Shown here one piece after another: positions 1-11,113 of a stretch of DNA of 64,000 bases. The stretch is from Chlorobiota bacterium (GTDB taxonomy: Bacteria; Bacteroidota; Chlorobiia; Chlorobiales; Chlorobiaceae): assembly GCA_016868665.1 (NCBI GenBank), contig VGGK01000005.1, forward strand, positions 1-64,000, in the 5' to 3' direction. Made by a program: the position numbers and the translations under genes. A model generated the notes under the pieces. That model ran no database searches and had not been told where the DNA came from. It saw nothing but the letters and a program-made list of their open reading frames with translations. The first letter of the stretch is position 1. Every line of letters begins with the position of its first letter.

Positions 1-2
1 CC

Positions 3-579
3 CTGTCAACGCTTCCCCACCACATTGCTGTAGGTCGAGGCATGACTCGGGGCCATGATGGCTGGCTATGCCTTTCATGTCGGACTCTTTCATTCCTTAC
101 TCTTTGCCGGTTTTCATCGGCGCTTTCACAACGTCCTTCGAAGAGCGCAATCGCTTTCACGCAATCCGGCTGAAGAGGGGCTTGTGCTTGTCGGGTACGG
201 ATCGAGCGAATTCGGTAATATCTGGGAGGATTTGTTTGCGAATACCGGACGGGAAGCCGTCCGGAAAGGGAAATTCGGCGGATACGCCACGGCCTGATGC
301 GGCCATGTCGCGCACTACAGCCCGGACAGCACGGCATCGGCAATCAGGCGGATCCTGAAAAACCATGAAAGAGCAATCGTGATTCCTCTGCTGGTCTCAT
401 TCAGCGAACAATTCCAGATAGAGATCATCGGAGGAGGGGTGGCATCGGTTGACGACAACCAGGAAAAGGTGCGTTACAGACCCGACGCGATCCTGCCGGA
501 CGAGGAACTTGAACGGTGGATTGTGAAAACTGCGGAAATGCATGCGACAGCAATACGAAGCGCAAAACCCCGGCAATAA
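3..579 (+). pseudogene. Broken CbiX-like (sirohydrochlorin chelatase family) gene
   Basis: A single protein can be followed only by changing frame. Frame 3 gives a piece ending [11 protein letters not shown] (to about base 62). Frame 2 gives [11 protein letters not shown] to FEERNRF (about 68-155). Frame 1 gives [18 protein letters not shown], an in-frame TGA at 295-297, then [20 protein letters not shown] and on to a TAA at 577-579. The pieces join smoothly into one chelatase-like domain (VLVGYGSSE strand, [23 protein letters not shown]), so I read this as a decayed CbiX-type cobalt/ferrochelatase gene whose 5' end lies before the window. The family name rests on recalled sequence and is moderate; that the frame is broken at least three times is seen directly. 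It converges on a BtuB-like receptor gene, which fits a former corrinoid or tetrapyrrole locus. Confidence 0.55.
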
Positions 580-584
580 CCTCA

Positions 585-622
585 TAAAAAAGCCCTGACG
601 AACCGAAAGGAACGCCAGGGCT
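585..622 (-). terminator. Rho-independent terminator of the BtuB-like gene
   Basis: Stem agccctgacg / cgccagggct (591-600 with 613-622) with one mismatch. It is followed on the minus strand by six T (complement of 585-590). It lies 25 bases past the stop of the receptor gene. Confidence 0.85.
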
Positions 623-646
623 TCGGGGATAAGGGAAAAGAACCTG

Positions 647-2494
647 TCAGATCTTCACCCTCAACCCCGCAAGAAATTCCGTTCCGTCAAGATCGTACTC
701 TGAGGTAATCCTCTCCTCGCCAAAAACATTGTCGATCCTGATGAACGCCTCTGTCTGGTCGCTGAATTTTTTGGTCAACGTTGCATTGCAAACCCAGAAA
801 CCCTCAAGCATTGTCTCATCTGCGTCATAATGCTCGCCTATATACGAAGCTTCGAGACCAAGCGACAGGTCAGCGGGACAGAACGCGAAATCCAGACCGG
901 AAACGAATTTGCTCTCCGGACTGAAGGCCAGATCCTTTCCTGTTAATTTATCTTCGGTATCAAGCCAGGTATAACCGACTCTTGCAGAGACGCATTCGCT
1001 GAAACGGGCATCGAGATTCAGTTCCACGCCCTGTGTCATCGCTTCATCGATGTTGACATAGTACATATGCAATTGAGGACGCGAACCGGGGACCGGAAGA
1101 GATTCAACGTACGAATGTATCATATCCTCAACATCATTCCTGAACCAGGTCACCTTGCCGATGATGTCCCTGGCAAAAGCATATTCCACGCCAGCCTGAT
1201 AGCCGATCGATTTTTCCGGCTTCAGATCAGGATTGGGATGCACCGTAATAGATCCCATCATCCATTCATCATAAAGGCTTAAGAGCGAAGGCGCCTTGAA
1301 TGCCCGACCGATGGAAGCCCGGATTTTCAACTCGTCTGTTGCCTTGAGCATGATGCTTGCTTTCGGATTGATTTCATCTCCCCATTTCTCATGTGAATCG
1401 ATACGCCCTCCAAGTACCAGCACGACGGGAGACCAATCGATTTCGTCCTGAAGATAAATGCTGTGCAAAGTCTGATCCATCTTGAGGTTATTTCCCGGAG
1501 AAGCAAAAAAATCCCTTCTTTCGTTCCAGAACTCATACCCGGCGGTCACGAGATGACTATCGAACACCAAACGCGAATAGAGCAATTCGACTTCATAGTT
1601 GTCGAGCACTGTCTTTTCTGAGCTGCCGTCATCCCATTTGCCGAATTCATAAAAAGATCCCCGCAGCTTCAGCGAAGACAACTCGTCCGGCACCCAGTTC
1701 ATCAAGGCATTGAGACCATAGCGTTCCTGATTCACCATCTGATCTTCCATATCCTGAAACGAATAATATGGTTTGAGACTGAACCCGACATTATCCGAAA
1801 CATTCAGCGAAACCGTACCCTGCAGTATATGCTCGTTATAACTGTCAATATCCTCGTTAATGCCATCTGACTCCCGATAGGTATAGTTGAACCGTGTCTT
1901 CAGATTCTCCGATCCGGCTCCGCCGGAAACGGAGCCCACAACCGTTCCGCGCGATCCCATGGCGAGCGATCCTGAAAACTCCGGCTTATCAGCCCCTTTG
2001 CGAGTGATGATGTTGACCACCCCGCCAACAGCATCGCTGCCGTAGAGCGCCGATCCAGGCCCTTTGAGAATTTCTATCCGTTCGATCATCTCAACGGAAA
2101 TCTGTTGCAGATCGACAGCATTCTGATGACCGCCCAATAACCTCTGTCCATCAACCAGCACAAGGGTATATTTAGCGTCGAACCCAAATATCCTGACATT
2201 TCCTTTATTTCCCCATGATCCGGCTTTTGCTTTTAAACTGAGCCCTGACGTAAGATCAAGCGCATCCTGTGCAGTCTGGACATTCCGCTTCAGCAGCTCC
2301 TCGCGGGTAATAACCTCCGCATCGACCGGCACGTCGCCGAGCGTATGCGGCGTTTTTGTTGCGCTGACCACGATCTTGTCGAGTATCACAGACTGCGTGT
2401 CCGTCTCCGCCCGGGCCTCTCCGGCAAAACCGGCAAGAACGAGCACCATGAGCGCGCGGCAGGTTTTTTTGCATAACTTCTGTTTATGTGACAT
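647..2494 (-). CDS. TonB-dependent receptor, BtuB-like
   Basis: Outer-membrane active transporter of 615 residues, a normal length for the BtuB/CirA class. A signal peptide (about residues 1-29, ending GEARA) precedes a TonB-box-like segment [10 protein letters not shown]. The plug domain (about 45-160) carries the usual [20 protein letters not shown] and the [20 protein letters not shown] signature; the rest is a 22-strand barrel ending AGLRVKI. The small plug and barrel without a carboxypeptidase-like N-domain favour a cobalamin or iron-chelate substrate. Upstream, 123 bases away, is the ABC membrane gene. The leader resembles that of the receptor at 5620-8130 and contains a GCCACTGTA / GAGACCTG pair reminiscent of a cobalamin riboswitch. 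Cobalamin is therefore a reasonable but unproven substrate. Confidence 0.85.
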
Positions 2495-2617
2495 AGCTGT
2501 GTGTGGCTTTCCTCGAAACAGGCACCGGATGTCCGGTAACAGGTCTCGACTGGTATAATTGAGTGCGCTCTGCAGGTACAGTGGCGTATAATCCCGTATC
2601 GGGCATCCCCTGACGCC
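2495..2617 (-). promoter_or_regulatory. Leader shared with the 5620-8130 receptor; cobalamin-riboswitch-like
   Basis: On the minus strand this leader contains ACTGTACCTGCAGAGCGCA (complement of about 2564-2582), which recurs exactly in the leader at 8131-8257. About 30 bases downstream, both leaders carry a short palindromic stem (ACCGGACATCCGGT here), and both end ACAGCT before the ATG. The core order GCCACTGTA followed by AGTCGAGACCTG resembles the 3' half of a cobalamin riboswitch. The 5' half, if present, would overlap the end of the upstream gene. The homology between the two leaders is seen directly; the riboswitch reading is inference. Confidence 0.4.
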
Positions 2618-4606
2618 TCAATTCCGGCGCGTAAACGACAGGAACGAATCCGTTTCCGAAAGAAGAAGCACCAGCACGGCCGTCAGGCCGAAAACGGCGA
2701 CAAGCGCATAATCCGACCCTCTCCTGAGCCCAAACCCCAGCCTCGAGATCAGAGCGAACACGACAAGCGCAAAAACGCTGCCGGAGAGCGCCGCCGGCAC
2801 CGATTCAGCATATCGGACCTGCAGATACCTGAACGAAGAGCCGGAGATGTCCTGCATGATCTGAACCGGAAAGAGAAATGCCGCGAATGTCTTCAGCACA
2901 TTCACCGATTCGAGGTATACGGCGTCGGTCGGCTGCATGTAGCGATGCACGACCCTGAAATCGGGAGTCATGGCAATGCCCGACCTGCCCGCATAGTTCA
3001 TTTCGGTGGACTCCAGGGAAACCGACGTGTAGAGGATGTCGGACCAAAGCGCCAGAGTAAGATCGTCAGCATTGAAACGTCCGACGGGAATTCGCTTCAG
3101 CGCTCCGTCTTTCTGCATGACGGCATAGAGTGCCCTGTCGGTGACGATAAAACCGTAGTACTCCTGTCGATGATGCTCTTTGATATGGATTTGGCGCACC
3201 GAGCCTTCGATATGACCTTCCAGGCGCCTGCATGCAGGCTTGCCGTCCACCATCCGCATCTGAAAGAGCGAGCCTGCGGAATCGGCAAGAAAATAGCCGA
3301 CATCGTACCGCTTTCTCACATCAGGATTGCCGCCGACAGCACGAATCGGATAGATAAATCCGGCATCACCCAGCGCATTGGTAAATGCTCGACTCTTCGG
3401 GCGGTCAGTTATTCCGTTATGAGGCGTCAGAAACTCGATTCCGTAGCCGTCATACGAGACCCTGAAAAAATCATCGGGCTTCTGCAGCCTTGCCCCGGCG
3501 GGATTCGATTCCAGAAGCATGTGCAGCATCGGAGGAGGAGAATTCCAGTCGAACGAAGAGAGTCGGACGAACTGCCATGCCCGTTCGGCTTCAAGCGCAG
3601 AGATGGCAACTCCGCCGATGCTCTCCGGAAACATCTCCCATTTGACGAGGTCCCTGACATAAAGAAACGGGAGCGCCGCCCGATACTGTTCTCTGGAAAG
3701 GGTGGTGCCGTTTTCGAGCAGATAGCTCGGTTCTGCATCCGGAGCAGCTCCCTTGCCCGCAGGAAAATCGCTGATCACGAACTGGCGGTGTACCGGACTG
3801 AAGTGCATCGAGGTGTGCGGATCCGCAGGTATCACGATTTTCCAGTAGAGCGCAAGCAGCACGGAACCAAGTCCGCAGATTGCCAGAATGATGGTGATCA
3901 TACGTGAAAAAACAAACGCGCTGCCCCGTGCGGCATGGCGCATATAGTGCAGAATGGCGTAACAGGCAACGAAGACGAACAGAAACGCTACAAAGCCGTA
4001 TATCCAGATCGAATGTTCGTAGAGGCCATAGGCACCCCTTGCTCCGAGCATGTTCCAGATCGGATAGAGCGCCGCCCCTATCAGCAGCCTGACGCCGGGG
4101 CTTCCGCTGCTGAAAAATGCCACGCTGGAATAATACGCCGCGATACTGAGCAGAATCCAGGGCAGAACGGTCAGAAAGGCCGGATGTATAATCTCCCGGG
4201 GAAAATGAAACCACTGCATGGTCCCCAGAAAAAGGGCCGTCGCAGCGATATTGACCAGCAGCAGCAGGATGGTGCCTGTGGCAAGCATGACGGCGATGCC
4301 CGAAACCGGCTCGATCGGCGTATGGTAGAGCAGACGGAGGCGTTTTCCCTGCGACTCAGGCCATGCCTGCAGAAATCCGATGAGGACAGCGCAGACGACC
4401 ACGAGAAAATACCTGCCGAAAAACTGCGGCTGCCTGAATACGATTGTCTCCCACAGGCCGAAGGAACCATAGGCGCGCTGCAGGGAGTGCAGCGCGAGCA
4501 GGGAGTCGGCAGCGGAATAAAGCAGCAGCATGGGCAGGAGCCATATTCCTCTCCGGAGCTTGATCCGCTCTTTTGAAATCAGGGATCGTAACTGCTGTTT
4601 TGTCAT
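2618..4606 (-). CDS. ABC-associated integral membrane protein (DUF4857-like)
   Basis: A 662-residue membrane protein. Roughly six hydrophobic segments lie in the first 255 residues (e.g. GIWLLPMLLLYSAADSLLAL, FLVVVCAVLIGFLQAW, ILLLLVNIAATALFLG), followed by a soluble, probably extracytoplasmic, domain of about 330 residues. Two further helices sit at the C-terminus (VFALVVFALISRLGFG, ALVAVFGLTAVLVLLL). This architecture and its position 44 bases after an ABC ATPase fit the DUF4857 family, known next to ABC ATPases in Bacteroidetes/Chlorobi. It is probably the permease-like partner of that ATPase; the substrate is unknown. There is no binding protein gene nearby. No strong Shine-Dalgarno is seen at the chosen ATG. 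Confidence 0.65.
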   Translation of the reverse strand: MTKQQLRSLISKERIKLRRGIWLLPMLLLYSAADSLLALHSLQRAYGSFGLWETIVFRQPQFFGRYFLVVVCAVLIGFLQAWPESQGKRLRLLYHTPIEPVSGIAVMLATGTILLLLVNIAATALFLGTMQWFHFPREIIHPAFLTVLPWILLSIAAYYSSVAFFSSGSPGVRLLIGAALYPIWNMLGARGAYGLYEHSIWIYGFVAFLFVFVACYAILHYMRHAARGSAFVFSRMITIILAICGLGSVLLALYWKIVIPADPHTSMHFSPVHRQFVISDFPAGKGAAPDAEPSYLLENGTTLSREQYRAALPFLYVRDLVKWEMFPESIGGVAISALEAERAWQFVRLSSFDWNSPPPMLHMLLESNPAGARLQKPDDFFRVSYDGYGIEFLTPHNGITDRPKSRAFTNALGDAGFIYPIRAVGGNPDVRKRYDVGYFLADSAGSLFQMRMVDGKPACRRLEGHIEGSVRQIHIKEHHRQEYYGFIVTDRALYAVMQKDGALKRIPVGRFNADDLTLALWSDILYTSVSLESTEMNYAGRSGIAMTPDFRVVHRYMQPTDAVYLESVNVLKTFAAFLFPVQIMQDISGSSFRYLQVRYAESVPAALSGSVFALVVFALISRLGFGLRRGSDYALVAVFGLTAVLVLLLSETDSFLSFTRRN

Positions 4607-4650
4607 ATACTGTTTTTCGCTATTGCATATTTCATCGACCTTCGCCCGAC

Positions 4651-5586
4651 TCAGTACTTGCCGGTCAGCCCGACAAAGGCATCTTCGAAACTCATGGGAA
4701 CTGACACGAGATCAGCTGCCGGCACCTGATGCCGTTCCAGATACGCGGCAATTTCCTGTTCACTGAAAAAACCATAGACAAAGGTGGTTTTCGCCATATG
4801 CTCGATGCTGCGAACGGTGTCGTCGCTCTTCATCGCCAATGAAGCCGGCGTACGCCGGAAACTGCAGCAACGAAAAGAGTCCATGAATTCGCGCTTTCCC
4901 ATGCAGGCGCAGACCCGCCCCTCCTTGAGCACCACCATGCGGTCGATGACGCGATCGAGCTCCTGCACCACGTGAGAAGTCAAAAGCACCGTCGTACCGT
5001 GCAGGGTAACGTATTCGCGCAGAAAATCGACAAAAAGCCTGCGATATCCGACATCGAGCCCCATGCTGTAATCGTCGAGAATCATAAGTTCCGGCATCTG
5101 CGCCATGATCAGCCCGAGCACCACCTGCGAACGCTGGCCGTTCGACATTGCCGATAACCGCCTGGTGTCGGGCATCTGCATCCGTCCGATCAGATCGTAG
5201 AAAACCTCGCGATTCCATCCGGGATAAAAGGGCGCGTAGTAGCGCTCAAGTTCGGCAACACGCATGAAATCGTACTGTACGAACCCCTCCTGCAGCAGAC
5301 CGATACGCGAACGGACTTCGGGAGAGAGCGCATGGCTCTCCTCGCCGAGCACCCTGCACGTTCCTCCTGACGGACGAAGAAAGCCCATGAGGATATTGAT
5401 CGCCGTGCTCTTGCCTGCGCCGTTTTTTCCGAGCAGGCCGAATATGCCGCCGGATTCCACGCTGAACGTCAGACCGTGGAGCACCTGCTTTCTGCCGTAG
5501 GCATGCCTGAGACCTTTACACGCTATAAGCGAATCCATACTTGCAATCAACCGCATTGAAATCAACAAATACAGCGCTGCCGGCAA
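4651..5586 (-). CDS. ABC transporter ATP-binding protein
   Basis: Single ABC ATPase domain of 311 residues with a C-terminal extension of about 80. Walker A GKNGAGKST is at about 53-61. The signature region is LSAMSNGQRSQ (about 144-154), and the H-loop is LLTSHVVQE. Walker B reads LMILDDYSMGLD, with Asp where the catalytic Glu normally stands. The start is uncertain. A TTG at 5584-5586 has a good AGGAG seven bases upstream, but an ATG at 5536-5538 (MDSLIACKG) gives the N-terminus usual for the family. It sits 33 bases after the large receptor gene and 44 bases before its membrane partner, so it is almost certainly co-transcribed with both. The role is probably energising export or envelope transport with the DUF4857-like protein. 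Confidence 0.85.
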   Translation of the reverse strand: MPAALYLLISMRLIASMDSLIACKGLRHAYGRKQVLHGLTFSVESGGIFGLLGKNGAGKSTAINILMGFLRPSGGTCRVLGEESHALSPEVRSRIGLLQEGFVQYDFMRVAELERYYAPFYPGWNREVFYDLIGRMQMPDTRRLSAMSNGQRSQVVLGLIMAQMPELMILDDYSMGLDVGYRRLFVDFLREYVTLHGTTVLLTSHVVQELDRVIDRMVVLKEGRVCACMGKREFMDSFRCCSFRRTPASLAMKSDDTVRSIEHMAKTTFVYGFFSEQEIAAYLERHQVPAADLVSVPMSFEDAFVGLTGKY

Positions 5587-5619
5587 ACGACACTCCTGAC
5601 CGGCAGCACGAACAAACCC

Positions 5620-8130
5620 TTATAACTCGCATCGGAAACCGAGATAATACCCCCGGCCGCGAACCGTCCCTCCTTCCGCAACGCTGGTTCCGATGCTCGC
5701 GTTGAACAGGTTGTAGACGTCGCCCGTCAGCGTGGCGGTAAGCCCTTCGGATTTGTAAAGATCCATCTCGACCGAAAGATCCGACATGAAGCCGCCCGCA
5801 ATATCGCCTATAACATACGCGTCGTAATACCTCGACCCCGTCTCGTTCAGCCAGTATGAGCTTGGAGACGTATTGCTTCCGGATGTCGTCCCGTACGGCG
5901 TGGCGCTGCTTATCTGTTTGTCTGCTTTAAGCCCTTTGCTCCAGTCGCGCCACCGGTTGACGGAATAGAGCCGAAGCTGGTCGTTGAAGAAACTTCCCTG
6001 CCAGGTAAAGGTGATCGCCAGGGGCGCATTGTAGTTATCGGCCGGCATGGCCGCACGCAACATCGGCTCTCCGTTATAGAAGACCATGAAATACTCCCGC
6101 TCCACGCCGTTATTTTCCGAAAACGCATTATCGTAATAGTTTCCGTTGAACGTTTTAATCCACGATTTTGCGGCTCCCAGCGTCAGCGAATGCCGGCCCC
6201 ACTCCCCGGCATCGAAAGCGCAGGAAAGGTCGGCGGAAAGTCCTTCATAGGAACCTTTTCCCTCGTTGGTCATCCAGCTCCTGTAATCGTAGGATCCATC
6301 CGGAAAATCGATACGCTCAACCCTGTTCAGGAGCTGCTTGCGATGATCGCGCCTGACAGCCTTGAACCCGTACCCGAGGTTCCCGATATTACCGGCAATA
6401 CCGCCCATCACTTCGTCGGAATAGGGTGTAGCAAGTCCGTCAGTGTCAAAGCTGTAATCGGCGCTGACCTTGTCGGTAATGGTCTGCGTAGTCACTCCTG
6501 TAGACTTGACTGTTTTCCACTGATTGTTCAGATAGGGCCGGTACCGGTCGAAGGCGTAAGCTCTGAGTGCTGTACCGTAATAGCGGTTGTACCCCGAGAC
6601 AAGACGAAACATACTGTTGCCGAACGTATCGAACTCCGCTTTCAGGCGGTGTGCGATATCGGCATTACCGGTAAAGTCGTCGTAATCGATCCGGAAACCC
6701 GGAGTAAAAGAGAGTCTTCCAAGTCCAAGGTCTGCCGAAGCATAGTAACCCAGCGTCGCGAGCGATTTCGACTGATCGTGCTCAAGGTATCTGGTCAGGG
6801 TATGCAGGATTTGGGGAGCACTCTCCACATACACGTCGGCCACCGCCTCCTCGTTCCACATATCGAGCGCTTCAGCAGTGAATTCAAGGCCGGTAGAAAA
6901 ACCCTTCAGCAGGGGCAGCTCCAGAGGAACAGACTGGAAATCGACCCTGAACACCGCCGTTCTGTTTTCATTGGTCGCATCGCCTACCCCGCCATACTGT
7001 TCCCCCTCTTTTGTAACGGAATTTGAATAGGAGTAGCGATAAGCAGTCTCGTTGTCCCTGCTGTAACCGCTCTCCTGCCATGCCGCCTTTGCCTCGATGA
7101 CGCCAAGATCGGTCGTCCAGTCAGCACCAAGGGCAAGCCTGAAGGCTTCGTTATTGATCTCCCAGTCGCTGTCCGCCCAGGCCGCCCGCCAACGCCTCTC
7201 TTCATAAGGGGCATACGTTGCGTCTACCGTCAGCCTCAACCTGTCGGAAGGCTTCGCAACCAGCTTGAGAAAATAATTTTCGCCGGTTCTGTGCTGATCG
7301 TCCTCATCGTAGCTGTATGTCGTCATGCCAATCCGATCCCTCCTGACGAGCGGCATGACGGAATGCTGCCTCGATGCCGCAACCATCAGAGCTACCTTTT
7401 CGGAAAGAGGACCGTCCGCTATCACAGTCAACCTGTATTTCGAAAAATCAGGCTGGTTGTCCGGCTCCTCCGAGTCGCCGTCTACACCCCGCATAAGAAA
7501 CCACTCGTCTCTCGAATGCTTTCCGCTGAGACTGAAATGCCAGCGATCGGTACGCGGATCCCTGATGTCGGCACTGACGACGCCGCCGGTAAATCCCCCG
7601 TATTTTGCCGAAATATTGCTGGAATAAACCGAAACGGATTCGACAAGCGAAGTATCGTAAAACAGGTTCTGTTCGGCGCCATGAACACTGAGATCGTTAA
7701 AACTGGCGCCCGCATTGTTATCTTCCGCGCCAAGACCACTCGGATTGAAGGTATTGGTATTGCCGATACCGTCGACCACAAACGCATTTTCATAGGGCTT
7801 GGCCCCGCTGATGGAAATCCGGGGTGGCCTGATCTCGCCGGCCGTAAGACTGCTCTCCGCGTCGTTCGAGAACTGCACATCCGCCATTCCCTTGAGCGCT
7901 CCGGTTATCGAACCGGAATAATTCGGCATTGTCCGCAGTGAATCGCCCTTGAGTTCGCTCCTGCCGGGATCCTTTTTTTCATCGAGAACCGTTATCTGCC
8001 TGAGCGTGTATTCCGACCTTTCCTGCGGAACATCTTTCTCTTCGGCGGCCGCATTGCCGGCATATCCCGCGACAAGCAGCACCATGAGCGTCCTGCAGGC
8101 TCTCTTTTTCAGTCTTCTCTGGTTGAACAT
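5620..8130 (-). CDS. TonB-dependent receptor (large plug, unknown substrate)
   Basis: An 836-residue outer-membrane receptor. I start at the ATG at 8128-8130 (MFNQRRLKKRACR) because it gives a clean signal peptide (LMVLLVAGYAGNAAA). It also aligns with the start of the BtuB-like receptor at 647-2494, whose signal peptide is closely similar. The plug shows RISISGAKPYENAFVVDGIG and ISAKYGGFTGGVVSADI in place of the usual GPGSALYG; the barrel runs to the C-terminal GYYLGFRCEL. It is divergent from classical siderophore or B12 receptors, so no substrate is assigned. It is the first gene of a tight block with the ABC ATPase and membrane protein. Its leader (8131-8257) is homologous to that of the second receptor. 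Confidence 0.8.
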   Translation of the reverse strand: MFNQRRLKKRACRTLMVLLVAGYAGNAAAEEKDVPQERSEYTLRQITVLDEKKDPGRSELKGDSLRTMPNYSGSITGALKGMADVQFSNDAESSLTAGEIRPPRISISGAKPYENAFVVDGIGNTNTFNPSGLGAEDNNAGASFNDLSVHGAEQNLFYDTSLVESVSVYSSNISAKYGGFTGGVVSADIRDPRTDRWHFSLSGKHSRDEWFLMRGVDGDSEEPDNQPDFSKYRLTVIADGPLSEKVALMVAASRQHSVMPLVRRDRIGMTTYSYDEDDQHRTGENYFLKLVAKPSDRLRLTVDATYAPYEERRWRAAWADSDWEINNEAFRLALGADWTTDLGVIEAKAAWQESGYSRDNETAYRYSYSNSVTKEGEQYGGVGDATNENRTAVFRVDFQSVPLELPLLKGFSTGLEFTAEALDMWNEEAVADVYVESAPQILHTLTRYLEHDQSKSLATLGYYASADLGLGRLSFTPGFRIDYDDFTGNADIAHRLKAEFDTFGNSMFRLVSGYNRYYGTALRAYAFDRYRPYLNNQWKTVKSTGVTTQTITDKVSADYSFDTDGLATPYSDEVMGGIAGNIGNLGYGFKAVRRDHRKQLLNRVERIDFPDGSYDYRSWMTNEGKGSYEGLSADLSCAFDAGEWGRHSLTLGAAKSWIKTFNGNYYDNAFSENNGVEREYFMVFYNGEPMLRAAMPADNYNAPLAITFTWQGSFFNDQLRLYSVNRWRDWSKGLKADKQISSATPYGTTSGSNTSPSSYWLNETGSRYYDAYVIGDIAGGFMSDLSVEMDLYKSEGLTATLTGDVYNLFNASIGTSVAEGGTVRGRGYYLGFRCEL

Positions 8131-8257
8131 AGCTGTTGTTGACCTTGCCGAAGGCAAACTCCGGAATTCCGGTCGCCAGCTTCGATGCTGTAATGATTTG
8201 CGCTCTGCAGGTACAGTCGCATCGTTTTTTCTCTCCAACACGATTTTTCCGGACTCG
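8131..8257 (-). promoter_or_regulatory. Leader homologous to 2495-2617; possible riboswitch
   Basis: The minus strand reads GCGACTGTACCTGCAGAGCG, then a palindromic stem ACCGGAATTCCGGA, then AGTTTGCC and a final ACAGCT before the ATG. It aligns with the 2495-2617 leader over about 95 bases. Upstream, ATCGT...ACGAT can pair around the GGAAAAATCGTG segment, somewhat like the core of a cobalamin riboswitch, but the GAGACCTG box seen in the other leader is degenerate here. It may be a diverged or decayed copy. Confidence 0.35.
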
Positions 8258-8692
8258 TCAATGCTGATGGTCGCCGGGCTTCATTCCGGGATCGTACTGA
8301 TCCCATACCCATTCCGACACCTTCCGCAGCTCGGATTCCGGAAGACTCATAGCCGGCATCAGTCCGAAACGTTTTATCGCTTCCTTACGACAAACAGCTT
8401 TCGATGCATCGGGCTTTTTCATGAAAGCCACCATGTGATCCACTGCTTCGCGCCTGCTTTTGAACGCTTCACGATAGTGCCTGGCAAGACCTTTTATCGG
8501 CGGAGCAGCTTTGGGTGGCGGCACAAGGGAGTGACAGACCATGCAGCTTTGACGATAAACCCTCTCTCCCACTTTCTCTGCCCTGGCCAAAGTCCCCTCG
8601 TGAGAGCCACCATACCCCTCACCCGAAGGCGCAAAAGCCAAGGCAGGGAAGGTCAGGAGAACCGCCAGAAAAAACATCCGTTTCCGACTCAT
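8258..8692 (-). CDS. Secreted monohaem cytochrome c
   Basis: A 144-residue protein from the ATG at 8690-8692 ([13 protein letters not shown]); a longer reading begins 11 residues earlier. The signal peptide (to about AFA at residue 21) is followed by one class I cytochrome c domain. The haem-binding site is CMVCH (about 50-54), and a plausible axial Met lies in [16 protein letters not shown]. The short tail has His residues (GDHQH). It is a periplasmic electron carrier by fold. It lies directly upstream of the receptor/ABC block, separated by the 127-base leader, so co-transcription is possible. Partner unknown. One CxxCH only, so not a multihaem protein. Confidence 0.85.
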
Positions 8693-8747
8693 AACGTTAG
8701 CGTTGTGTTTCGATGTGAGCGCCAATACCAGCGACTGTTTTGGCTAT

Positions 8748-9164
8748 TCATTTGATGAAGTAACCGGACACCCTCCAACCACCATCAGAATCCACCATCG
8801 GAATAATTGTCTCGATTGCAGACTTTTTGTTTTCAAAAGACGTGGAGTACTGGACGACAACATATTCTCCATCAGGAACACCTGGCAACGAAGTTTTGTA
8901 TGTAGCGCTCTTCAGCCCTCTCTTCAAAATCTTTCCAAGCGGCTTTCGTACTGACTTCATTGTATGATCCCACTGCATCATCCTGACTGCATTCCGGAAC
9001 GAGCCTGACGCCCCTTTCCAACTATCCTGATACTTTCCGTCGTCTACCAAAGCAAGCCATGCTTCAGCTTCTGAAACCGCTGTTTTTTCTTTCTCTCCGG
9101 CTATACAACCAATGGTTGTCAAGAAGATTCCTGACACAATCAGAACTGATATTTTTCTTTTCAT
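8748..9164 (-). CDS. DUF4019-family probable lipoprotein
   Basis: A 138-residue protein with an N-terminal export signal (MKRKISVLIVSGIFLTTIGC) ending in a lipobox-like IGC, so probably a lipoprotein. The body shows AEAWLALVDDGKYQDSW, followed by PLGKILKRGLKSATYKTSLP, GEYVVVQYSTSFENK and WRVSGYFIK, which is the DUF4019 pattern as I recall it. The family has no settled biochemical role. It lies 41 bases after the receptor at 9206-11113 and 55 bases before the cytochrome c gene on the same strand. It may therefore be part of one transcript running from the third receptor through the block. Confidence 0.75.
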   Translation of the reverse strand: MKRKISVLIVSGIFLTTIGCIAGEKEKTAVSEAEAWLALVDDGKYQDSWKGASGSFRNAVRMMQWDHTMKSVRKPLGKILKRGLKSATYKTSLPGVPDGEYVVVQYSTSFENKKSAIETIIPMVDSDGGWRVSGYFIK

Positions 9165-9205
9165 TGTTGCTCCATTTTCTGCCCGACACTACTCCTCGAC
9201 CATGA

Positions 9206-11113
9206 TCAGATTTCAATGCTGATTCCGCCATAGTAAAAGGAACCACTGCTGCCCGGCCCATAGACATTGCCATACGCATCCTCGACCTTCCTGTCGAATA
9301 CGTTATCGACTCCGGCAGAGACCTTTACCTGCGAGGTTAGTGTTTTCGATGCCTGCAGATTCACAATGGAATATCCGGCACTTTTCAGTCCGGCACCGAT
9401 AGAACGCGTGCCGACGGTCACAAGCCGGACATTACCATTGAAACCGGCCGGCTTATTTCGCCAGGCAAGCTTAAGAACATTTGACAGATCCGGCACATAG
9501 AGCAAAGCCTGACCTGTCGCCTTGTTCTCGCTCTCAAGCCAGGTCAGCTCATCGGAAAGCTCGAACCCTCCCGGCAGCTTAAGAGATGCCGATACTTCAA
9601 GCCCCTGCGTCATGGCATCGGCGATATTCTCCATTCTGTTGACCGGTATCCTCGGACTTGAACCTTCATACGACCCGGTGAAAACCTCCGCTATCATATC
9701 CCTGATATCGTTCCTGAATGCCGTCAGACCAAGCGAGAATCCATTATGAGCGAGATCCGCACCGATCTCCCGGGTTTTCGAAGTTTCCGGTTCGAGATCG
9801 GAATTCGGCAGCAGTATCCGATTGATGGTATAGGGCGAACCGGAGTAGAGTTCAAAAGCTGTCGGCGCACGAAACCCTTCACCATAGGCCGCACGCAGGC
9901 GCAGTATATCGCTCAAGCGGTATGCAAGATTTATTCTCGGACTGAAAACCGATCCGAAACCGGAGTGATCGTCGTAACGCAACCCGAGAACTGCCTGAAA
10001 CCTGTCGCCAAGTGACACCTCGTCTTGCAAAAAGAGGGCGAAATTCTCAATATCGCTCTCAAGACCATCGTCAATCCGATCATCCGTTCTGTATTCCATA
10101 CCCGCAGTCACGATATGCCCGTCAATAACCTTTCCTCTCCAGCGGCCTTCGTACTGCGCAGAAACCTGCTCCACGTCATGCAGTTCCGGAGCCGTATTGT
10201 CGCGGGGAATCAGCTTCAGACCCCAGTCGTATTCTGACCGCGACAGGCGCAACAGCAACTCCGAACTTTCCCCCAACTCATGCTGCAGCTCGATACTGCC
10301 GGTAAACCGGTCGGAATTGTTGAACCAGTCGTTCTCCTTGTTTCTCTTCGGACGGATACCCTCTCGTTCGACCTCGGCATAGATCACCCCAAGACTTACC
10401 GTTGTCCTATCGCCCGCCTGCCAGACCAGACGACCGGCACCGGATGCGATGCGCATATCGTCGCCATCGGTTTTCCTGTCGGCAGGGTCAAAATCGAAAC
10501 GACCCTTATCGGAGAAAGAACCCGCAAGAACATACCCGAGCGAACCGGTACTGCCGCTTACGCCGGCTTCAAATACCGTCTCTTCCGCTTCGCCATGGCG
10601 GCTTTCGCCGTAACGGGAACTCAACCATGCCTTCGACGGCCCGGAAGGCTTCTTCGTTATGACATTGACAACGCCGGCAATGGCATCGCTGCCATAGAGC
10701 GCCGAACCCGAACCACGCACAATTTCGATGCGCTCGATGATGCCTGCCGGAATCTCCACAAGATCAACCTTATCCTGGAATCCCGACGGCAACCTGACGC
10801 CATCGAGCAAGACCAGCGTAGAACTGCTCCCGAGCCCCCGCATGCGGACGACGCTCTGGCGTCCGCTGGTCGGCTCAAGCGTAACGCTCTGAGCCTCAGC
10901 AAGAATCTGATGCAGCGTCTCAGCGCCCATCTCCGCTATCTCGACCGCAGTGATTATCTCTATGGCCGCCGGAACCTTACTGACTGACGTCTCCGCAAGA
11001 GTCGCAGTCACAACGGTTTCATCGAGCGTGAAGCGAGACTCAGCCTCTTCCGCCTGAAGCGGCGCTGAAGAAATCAACAACAGCGCCAAAAGGGTGTAAT
11101 CTCTTTTTCTCAT
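9206..11113 (-). CDS. TonB-dependent receptor, siderophore/cobalamin type
   Basis: A 635-residue outer-membrane receptor with a signal peptide (MRKRDYTLLALLLISSAPLQA) and a TonB box near LDETVVTATL. The plug carries VVRMRGLGSSSTLVLLDGVR and [20 protein letters not shown]. The barrel includes the LRAAYGEGFRAPTAFELY motif common to this class and ends SFYYGGISIEI. It is similar in plan to the BtuB-like receptor at 647-2494 but does not share its leader or signal peptide. An AT-rich 136-base gap separates it from the DUF2292 gene upstream; a hairpin there may serve as promoter-proximal control. Substrate not assignable from sequence alone. Confidence 0.85.
   Translation of the reverse strand: MRKRDYTLLALLLISSAPLQAEEAESRFTLDETVVTATLAETSVSKVPAAIEIITAVEIAEMGAETLHQILAEAQSVTLEPTSGRQSVVRMRGLGSSSTLVLLDGVRLPSGFQDKVDLVEIPAGIIERIEIVRGSGSALYGSDAIAGVVNVITKKPSGPSKAWLSSRYGESRHGEAEETVFEAGVSGSTGSLGYVLAGSFSDKGRFDFDPADRKTDGDDMRIASGAGRLVWQAGDRTTVSLGVIYAEVEREGIRPKRNKENDWFNNSDRFTGSIELQHELGESSELLLRLSRSEYDWGLKLIPRDNTAPELHDVEQVSAQYEGRWRGKVIDGHIVTAGMEYRTDDRIDDGLESDIENFALFLQDEVSLGDRFQAVLGLRYDDHSGFGSVFSPRINLAYRLSDILRLRAAYGEGFRAPTAFELYSGSPYTINRILLPNSDLEPETSKTREIGADLAHNGFSLGLTAFRNDIRDMIAEVFTGSYEGSSPRIPVNRMENIADAMTQGLEVSASLKLPGGFELSDELTWLESENKATGQALLYVPDLSNVLKLAWRNKPAGFNGNVRLVTVGTRSIGAGLKSAGYSIVNLQASKTLTSQVKVSAGVDNVFDRKVEDAYGNVYGPGSSGSFYYGGISIEI

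Follow-up and report, generated by a model that had tools for sequence, protein, structure and literature searches.

A leader and export signal common to two unlike TonB-dependent receptor genes in a predicted iron-acquisition island of Chlorobiaceae

The window analysed here, i.e. the whole stretch of 64,000 nucleotides from a member of the Chlorobiaceae, contains two TonB-dependent receptor genes whose barrels are dissimilar and which nevertheless carry the same leader and export signal, as the anatomy of the locus shows. On the minus strand, leader A (2495-2617) precedes one of these genes and leader B (8131-8257) the other. We favour, with moderate confidence, the interpretation that both leaders are copies of a single, conserved cis-regulatory 5' module, resident of an iron-acquisition island, with a gene cassette between them, and that this module controls both receptors jointly. 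The leader element is undescribed, narrowly distributed and absent from Rfam.

Anatomy of the locus and borders of the shared segment

All features of the locus lie on the minus strand, in the order receptor C, a DUF4019 gene, a cytochrome c gene, leader B, receptor B, an ABC ATPase, a DUF4857 permease, leader A and receptor A. Receptor A (647-2494; Pfam PF00593/PF07715) is of the CirA/BtuB type, has the colicin I receptor (2hdf, E=2e-46) as its closest PDB structure, and is the probable ancestral partner of the leader. The cassette is formed by receptor B (5620-8130), the ATPase (4651-5586, PF00005) and the permease (2618-4606, PF16149, 4e-64). Receptor B is of the FusA/YddB type: phmmer showed homology to FusA over plug and barrel, with E=5e-54 to the ferredoxin receptor FusA (4zgv) and E=6e-36 to 6ofr (residues 56-711), and the FusA/YddB family consists of protein-import receptors (PMC6793856). 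As in the Fus/Ydd protein-import loci described there, a receptor homologous to FusA and YddB is found in an iron-type locus, next to a pair of ABC genes; the present locus differs in that no M16 protease, a common though not universal partner, was found among the identified neighbours of receptor B, in the DUF4857 type of its ABC permease, and in the pairing of receptor B with a second receptor having a common leader and signal peptide. The small c-type cytochrome gene (8258-8695; Cytochrome_CBB3, slightly below the Pfam cut-off) is upstream of the leader in both arrangements of the locus that are described below. Receptor C (9206-11113), a BtuB/heme-type TonB-dependent receptor according to Pfam, occupies the same place in all arrangements and has no copy of the module. 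The DUF4019 gene between these two (8748-9164) is present in this genome (G000), and a large alignment gap is found there in the related genomes G004 and G056.

The first-pass annotation of this DNA had pointed to an identical stretch and a downstream palindromic stem in the two leaders, and to similar signal peptides preceding two otherwise unlike receptors, and these observations held in every case. The 19-mer ACTGTACCTGCAGAGCGCA is exact at 2564-2582 and 8199-8217, and has no site in the genome beyond the two leaders at up to three mismatches, while the palindrome ACCGGANNTCCGG follows at 2525-2537 and 8161-8173. The signal peptides, delimited by translation at 2405-2494 for receptor A and 8041-8130 for receptor B (MFNQRRLKKRACRTLMVLLVAGYAGNAAAE), are 52% identical in amino acids and 66% in nucleotides. 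When leader A and the signal-peptide DNA were compared by BLAST with the genome, leader B was recovered with 69% identity over 165 nt (E=7e-7), and Smith-Waterman alignment of A with B gave a score of 77 in G000, where the best of 100 shuffles reached 28; local alignment scores ranged from 74 to 108 in three genomes, with shuffles not exceeding 28. The common segment has the same bounds in the three genomes, from -3 to about +160 relative to ACTG, and the sequences flanking it are unrelated, with random-level identity (~50%). The module is about 165 bp long, beginning three bases upstream of ACTGTACC and stopping within the signal-peptide codons. Copy A (2421-2585) and copy B (8057-8220), as bounded by BLAST and Smith-Waterman, each comprise the common leader and most signal-peptide codons of their receptor. 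The likeness covers ACTGTACCTGCAGAGCGCA, a CCGG-NNNN-CCGG hairpin, the surroundings of the start codon and the signal-peptide codons.

Further genomic copies proposed by a pattern search allowing three mismatches were discarded, their surrounding sequence being unlike the module except in true relatives, and plasmid and phage collections gave no match to it. Neither does ACCGGANNTCCGG mark a genome-wide regulon, its four other sites in G000 being in or near unrelated genes and mostly within coding regions. A cmscan of the whole window returned one tRNA and one group II intron end and nothing else. The intron end is at the start of the window (1-88, minus strand, 70 bits) and is followed by the C-terminal part of a CbiX-type lipoprotein gene (127-561, plus strand); the intron appears to interrupt this gene, which is intact in relatives.

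As judged by its gene content, the island is one for iron or heme acquisition. Downstream of receptor A in relatives, and convergent with it, are genes for CbiX-type lipoproteins, a PepSY_TM protein, TonB, ExbD and ExbB, and the islands of G182 and G004 also encode a DUF3793 protein and a DtxR-type repressor with a FeoA domain. The PepSY_TM gene is flanked by two CbiX-type lipoprotein genes (L117:2609-5234, L175:13064-15696, L176:12170-14753), and this combination suggests an exported tetrapyrrole chelatase-like function.

Distribution in relatives and origin of the two copies

A first covariance model, applied to the 65 genomes of the genus that were analysed, detected the leader in G000, G004 and G056, with two copies each, and in G182, with one copy, and a second model additionally found it in G218 and G328, from another genus of the same family. 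These are the only six species of the family in which the leader was found with covariance models, three with A and B and three with A alone, two of the latter belonging to the second genus. All nine leader copies are directly upstream of a receptor gene of this locus. Weaker matches in other genomes were set aside, the five best being within gyrB-, uvrD- and lysA-like housekeeping genes. Receptor B, a FusA/YddB-like receptor of the protein-import type in a green sulfur bacterium, was present in 3 of the 61 genomes sampled from the genus and in 3 of 395 from the phylum.

In G000, G004 and G056 the three cassette genes are in between, with a copy of leader and signal peptide on each side. The contig of G182 begins inside the permease gene, which is directly upstream of leader A. 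The order in G218 and G328 is receptor C, cytochrome c, leader and receptor A: the leader precedes an ortholog of receptor A (70% identical), homologs of the cytochrome c (65-67%) are directly upstream of it, receptor C homologs (73%) are also present, and no homologs of receptor B, the ATPase or the permease were found in the 17-19 kb read around it. The leaders of these two genomes are A-like, with 80% and 76% identity to leader A of G056 and 65-71% to B. A flavodoxin-like gene directly follows receptor A in the second genus (L175:12404-12907, L176:11514-12017) and was not identified there in the window or in G182.

That the 5' module was duplicated, as the first-pass annotation had proposed, is supported because the common borders are sharp and because the second genus has a single leader, placed between cytochrome c and receptor A; that it is also regulated is plausible, since the leader is conserved in six species of two genera. 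The original place of the module would be between the cytochrome c gene and receptor A, in the iron-acquisition island of Chlorobiaceae, and the cassette (the barrel of receptor B, the ATPase and the DUF4857 permease) would have come inside, with leader and signal peptide copied to each side. This direction of the event is the simplest reading, and the module was probably duplicated together with the cassette; a possible alternative is that the second genus lost the cassette through recombination between the two copies.

The locus is strongly mosaic, with abrupt changes in which two of the three genomes agree. From 6100 to 2267, 1075 sites unite G000 and G004 to the exclusion of G056, vs 13; from 2249 downward, 389 sites unite G004 and G056 to the exclusion of G000, vs 6. 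The sharpest switch in the region 600-11100 of the window is early in receptor A, between 2273 and 2255. G004 and G056 agree also further upstream, over receptor C and the cytochrome c (231 vs 29), and identity between G000 and G004 reaches 96% over 8067-8216 vs 77-78% on either side. The idea that the recombination breakpoints lie exactly on the module was abandoned, because the A-side switch (2255-2273) is ~220-240 bp inside receptor A and the two are only loosely linked.

Candidate modes of action of the leader

The leader is ~92 nt long, ends at the start codon and contains two short stem-loops in the RNAalifold consensus. Hairpin 1 (2567-2585 in leader A, where it reads GC-CA-CUGU-ACCU-GCAG-A-GC, and 8202-8220 in leader B) is paired in all eight distinct leaders. 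Hairpin 2 has an outer stem CGAGAC/GUUUCG and an inner CCGG-ACAU-CCGG in leader A (2514-2548), and an outer CGAAG/CUUCG with a bulge and an inner CCGG-AAUU-CCGG in leader B (8149-8184). The centres of the hairpins, counted on the alignment, are 44-45 nt apart in all eight, with a variable linker between them. Pair 9-14 of hairpin 1 varies with pairing kept (U-G, C-G, U-A), one outer-stem pair of hairpin 2 differs on both sides (G-C to A-U), and the consensus fold has 92% of cells paired and one two-sided pair, with eight distinct sequences only. In these eight leaders covariation was no better than in shuffles, the score being reached in 150 of 500, and the folding energies of the leaders are ordinary (z from +0.3 to -1.6). 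A cis-regulatory element is supported because 17 of the 20 paired positions are invariant, the corresponding counts being 2 of 18 for the linker and 1 of 17 for the stretch preceding the start codon, and from the sequences the module is probably a cis-regulatory leader. Its most likely role would be joint control of the expression of both receptors, independent of the ABC genes in the same run. We consider two forms of this about equally probable, namely a two-hairpin element that is transcribed and adjoins the start codon, or a pair of operators serving an internal promoter. As to the factor involved, our guess is a regulator responding to iron, for example the DtxR-FeoA protein whose gene is in the island of relatives.

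A tentative but serious possibility is that the element works in DNA, the inverted repeats CTGYA-NN-TGCAG and ACCGGA-NN-TCCGG being operators that flank an internal promoter at a distance of 44-45 bp from each other; the -10 of this promoter would be in the AT-rich linker, and a dimeric iron regulator would bind both operators. The constant spacing of the repeats despite the variable linker, the YATACC-like sequences common to A-type linkers, the DtxR-FeoA gene in the island of G182 and G004 and an RNA folding no better than shuffled are all in its favour. It also agrees with DtxR-family operators and iron islands in having inverted repeats upstream of iron-uptake genes and a DtxR-FeoA gene in the island of two relatives. 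However, no sigma-70-like promoter was matched in either leader, and several leaders depart from symmetry (AA or GA in the loop; A for T58 in G218 and G328) with their RNA stems still paired. Moreover, taken singly, the repeats are no marker of other island genes, the second palindrome is elsewhere in G000 mostly within coding regions, and, unlike DtxR-family operators, the repeats have no intact copies upstream of the other genes of the island in G182.

We regard as rather unlikely, in its complete form, the proposal of a two-hairpin RNA leader, undescribed so far and restricted to Chlorobiaceae, that would sense iron, heme or a related signal and control receptor translation or transcript fate, and whose copying together with the signal peptide would have brought a newly captured protein-import receptor under the same control. 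A switch in which the ACCU loop of hairpin 1 sequesters the Shine-Dalgarno sequence is attractive in B leaders and was rejected: the predicted pairing does not exceed chance when compared with shuffles (overall p about 0.055), A leaders show none of it, and the complementarity of loop and Shine-Dalgarno is lost in leader A of G056 and in G218 and G328.

It is also improbable, and more so, that the leaders are a relic, their likeness only recording how the cassette came in, by duplication or recombination, and being kept through the start-codon region and signal peptide. The direct-repeat geometry around the cassette and the strong recombination in the locus fit such an origin, but the identities between A and B leaders (65-76%) overlap in range with those among A leaders (65-80%), and the likeness of A and B is concentrated in two blocks that are kept also in the single-copy genus, while a relic would decay evenly. 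As for a translated leader, in which a frame left open ahead of the start codon would encode a conserved longer N-terminus or leader peptide, the frame is indeed open through most leaders, but the reading frame of the conserved block differs from copy to copy and leader B of G056 has an in-frame TAA three codons upstream of the ATG; with frames not conserved, the leader peptide was rejected and the whole reading is very improbable.

The cobalamin riboswitch reading and the meaning of the module

The suggestion in the first-pass annotation of a cobalamin riboswitch, canonical in leader A and degenerate in leader B, is almost certainly wrong. Like true members of RF00174, the leader is upstream of a BtuB/CirA-type TonB-dependent receptor gene and has an ACTGTA-like string, and in leader A of G000 and G004, which are identical in sequence, there is a local resemblance (GCCACTGTA...GAGACCTG). 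However, the order GCCACTG...GAGACCTG is confined to these; the B12-box-like string is not kept in the other seven distinct leaders, which carry GAAGCTGG, GAGGCTGG and similar in place of GAGACCTG, and with ~92 nt vs 189 model positions the leader is half as long and too short. No RF00174 match was obtained by cmscan in leaders A and B at the gathering threshold (31.5 bits), nor at E<=10 on 501-nt pieces, nor at E<=1 in the leaders of three relatives, while the same model detects a genuine cobalamin riboswitch elsewhere in G000 with 80.4 bits. The latter, at 23152-23390 of contig C28, precedes a different TonB-receptor-like gene and has cobQ-like and nitroreductase-like genes in its neighbourhood (names from reading the translations). 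Weak Rfam matches to the glycine riboswitch (17.6 bits, E 0.78, within receptor B codons) and to sX9 (E 0.31) were below gathering and taken as chance.

The module interpreted as a duplicated cis-regulatory leader offers a concrete route by which a captured receptor may come under the control of an existing uptake system, i.e. by duplication of the leader and export signal already present there. In addition, it locates a FusA-like protein-import receptor in green sulfur bacteria, and defines a small conserved leader in this group, where we found little literature on iron regulation of receptors.
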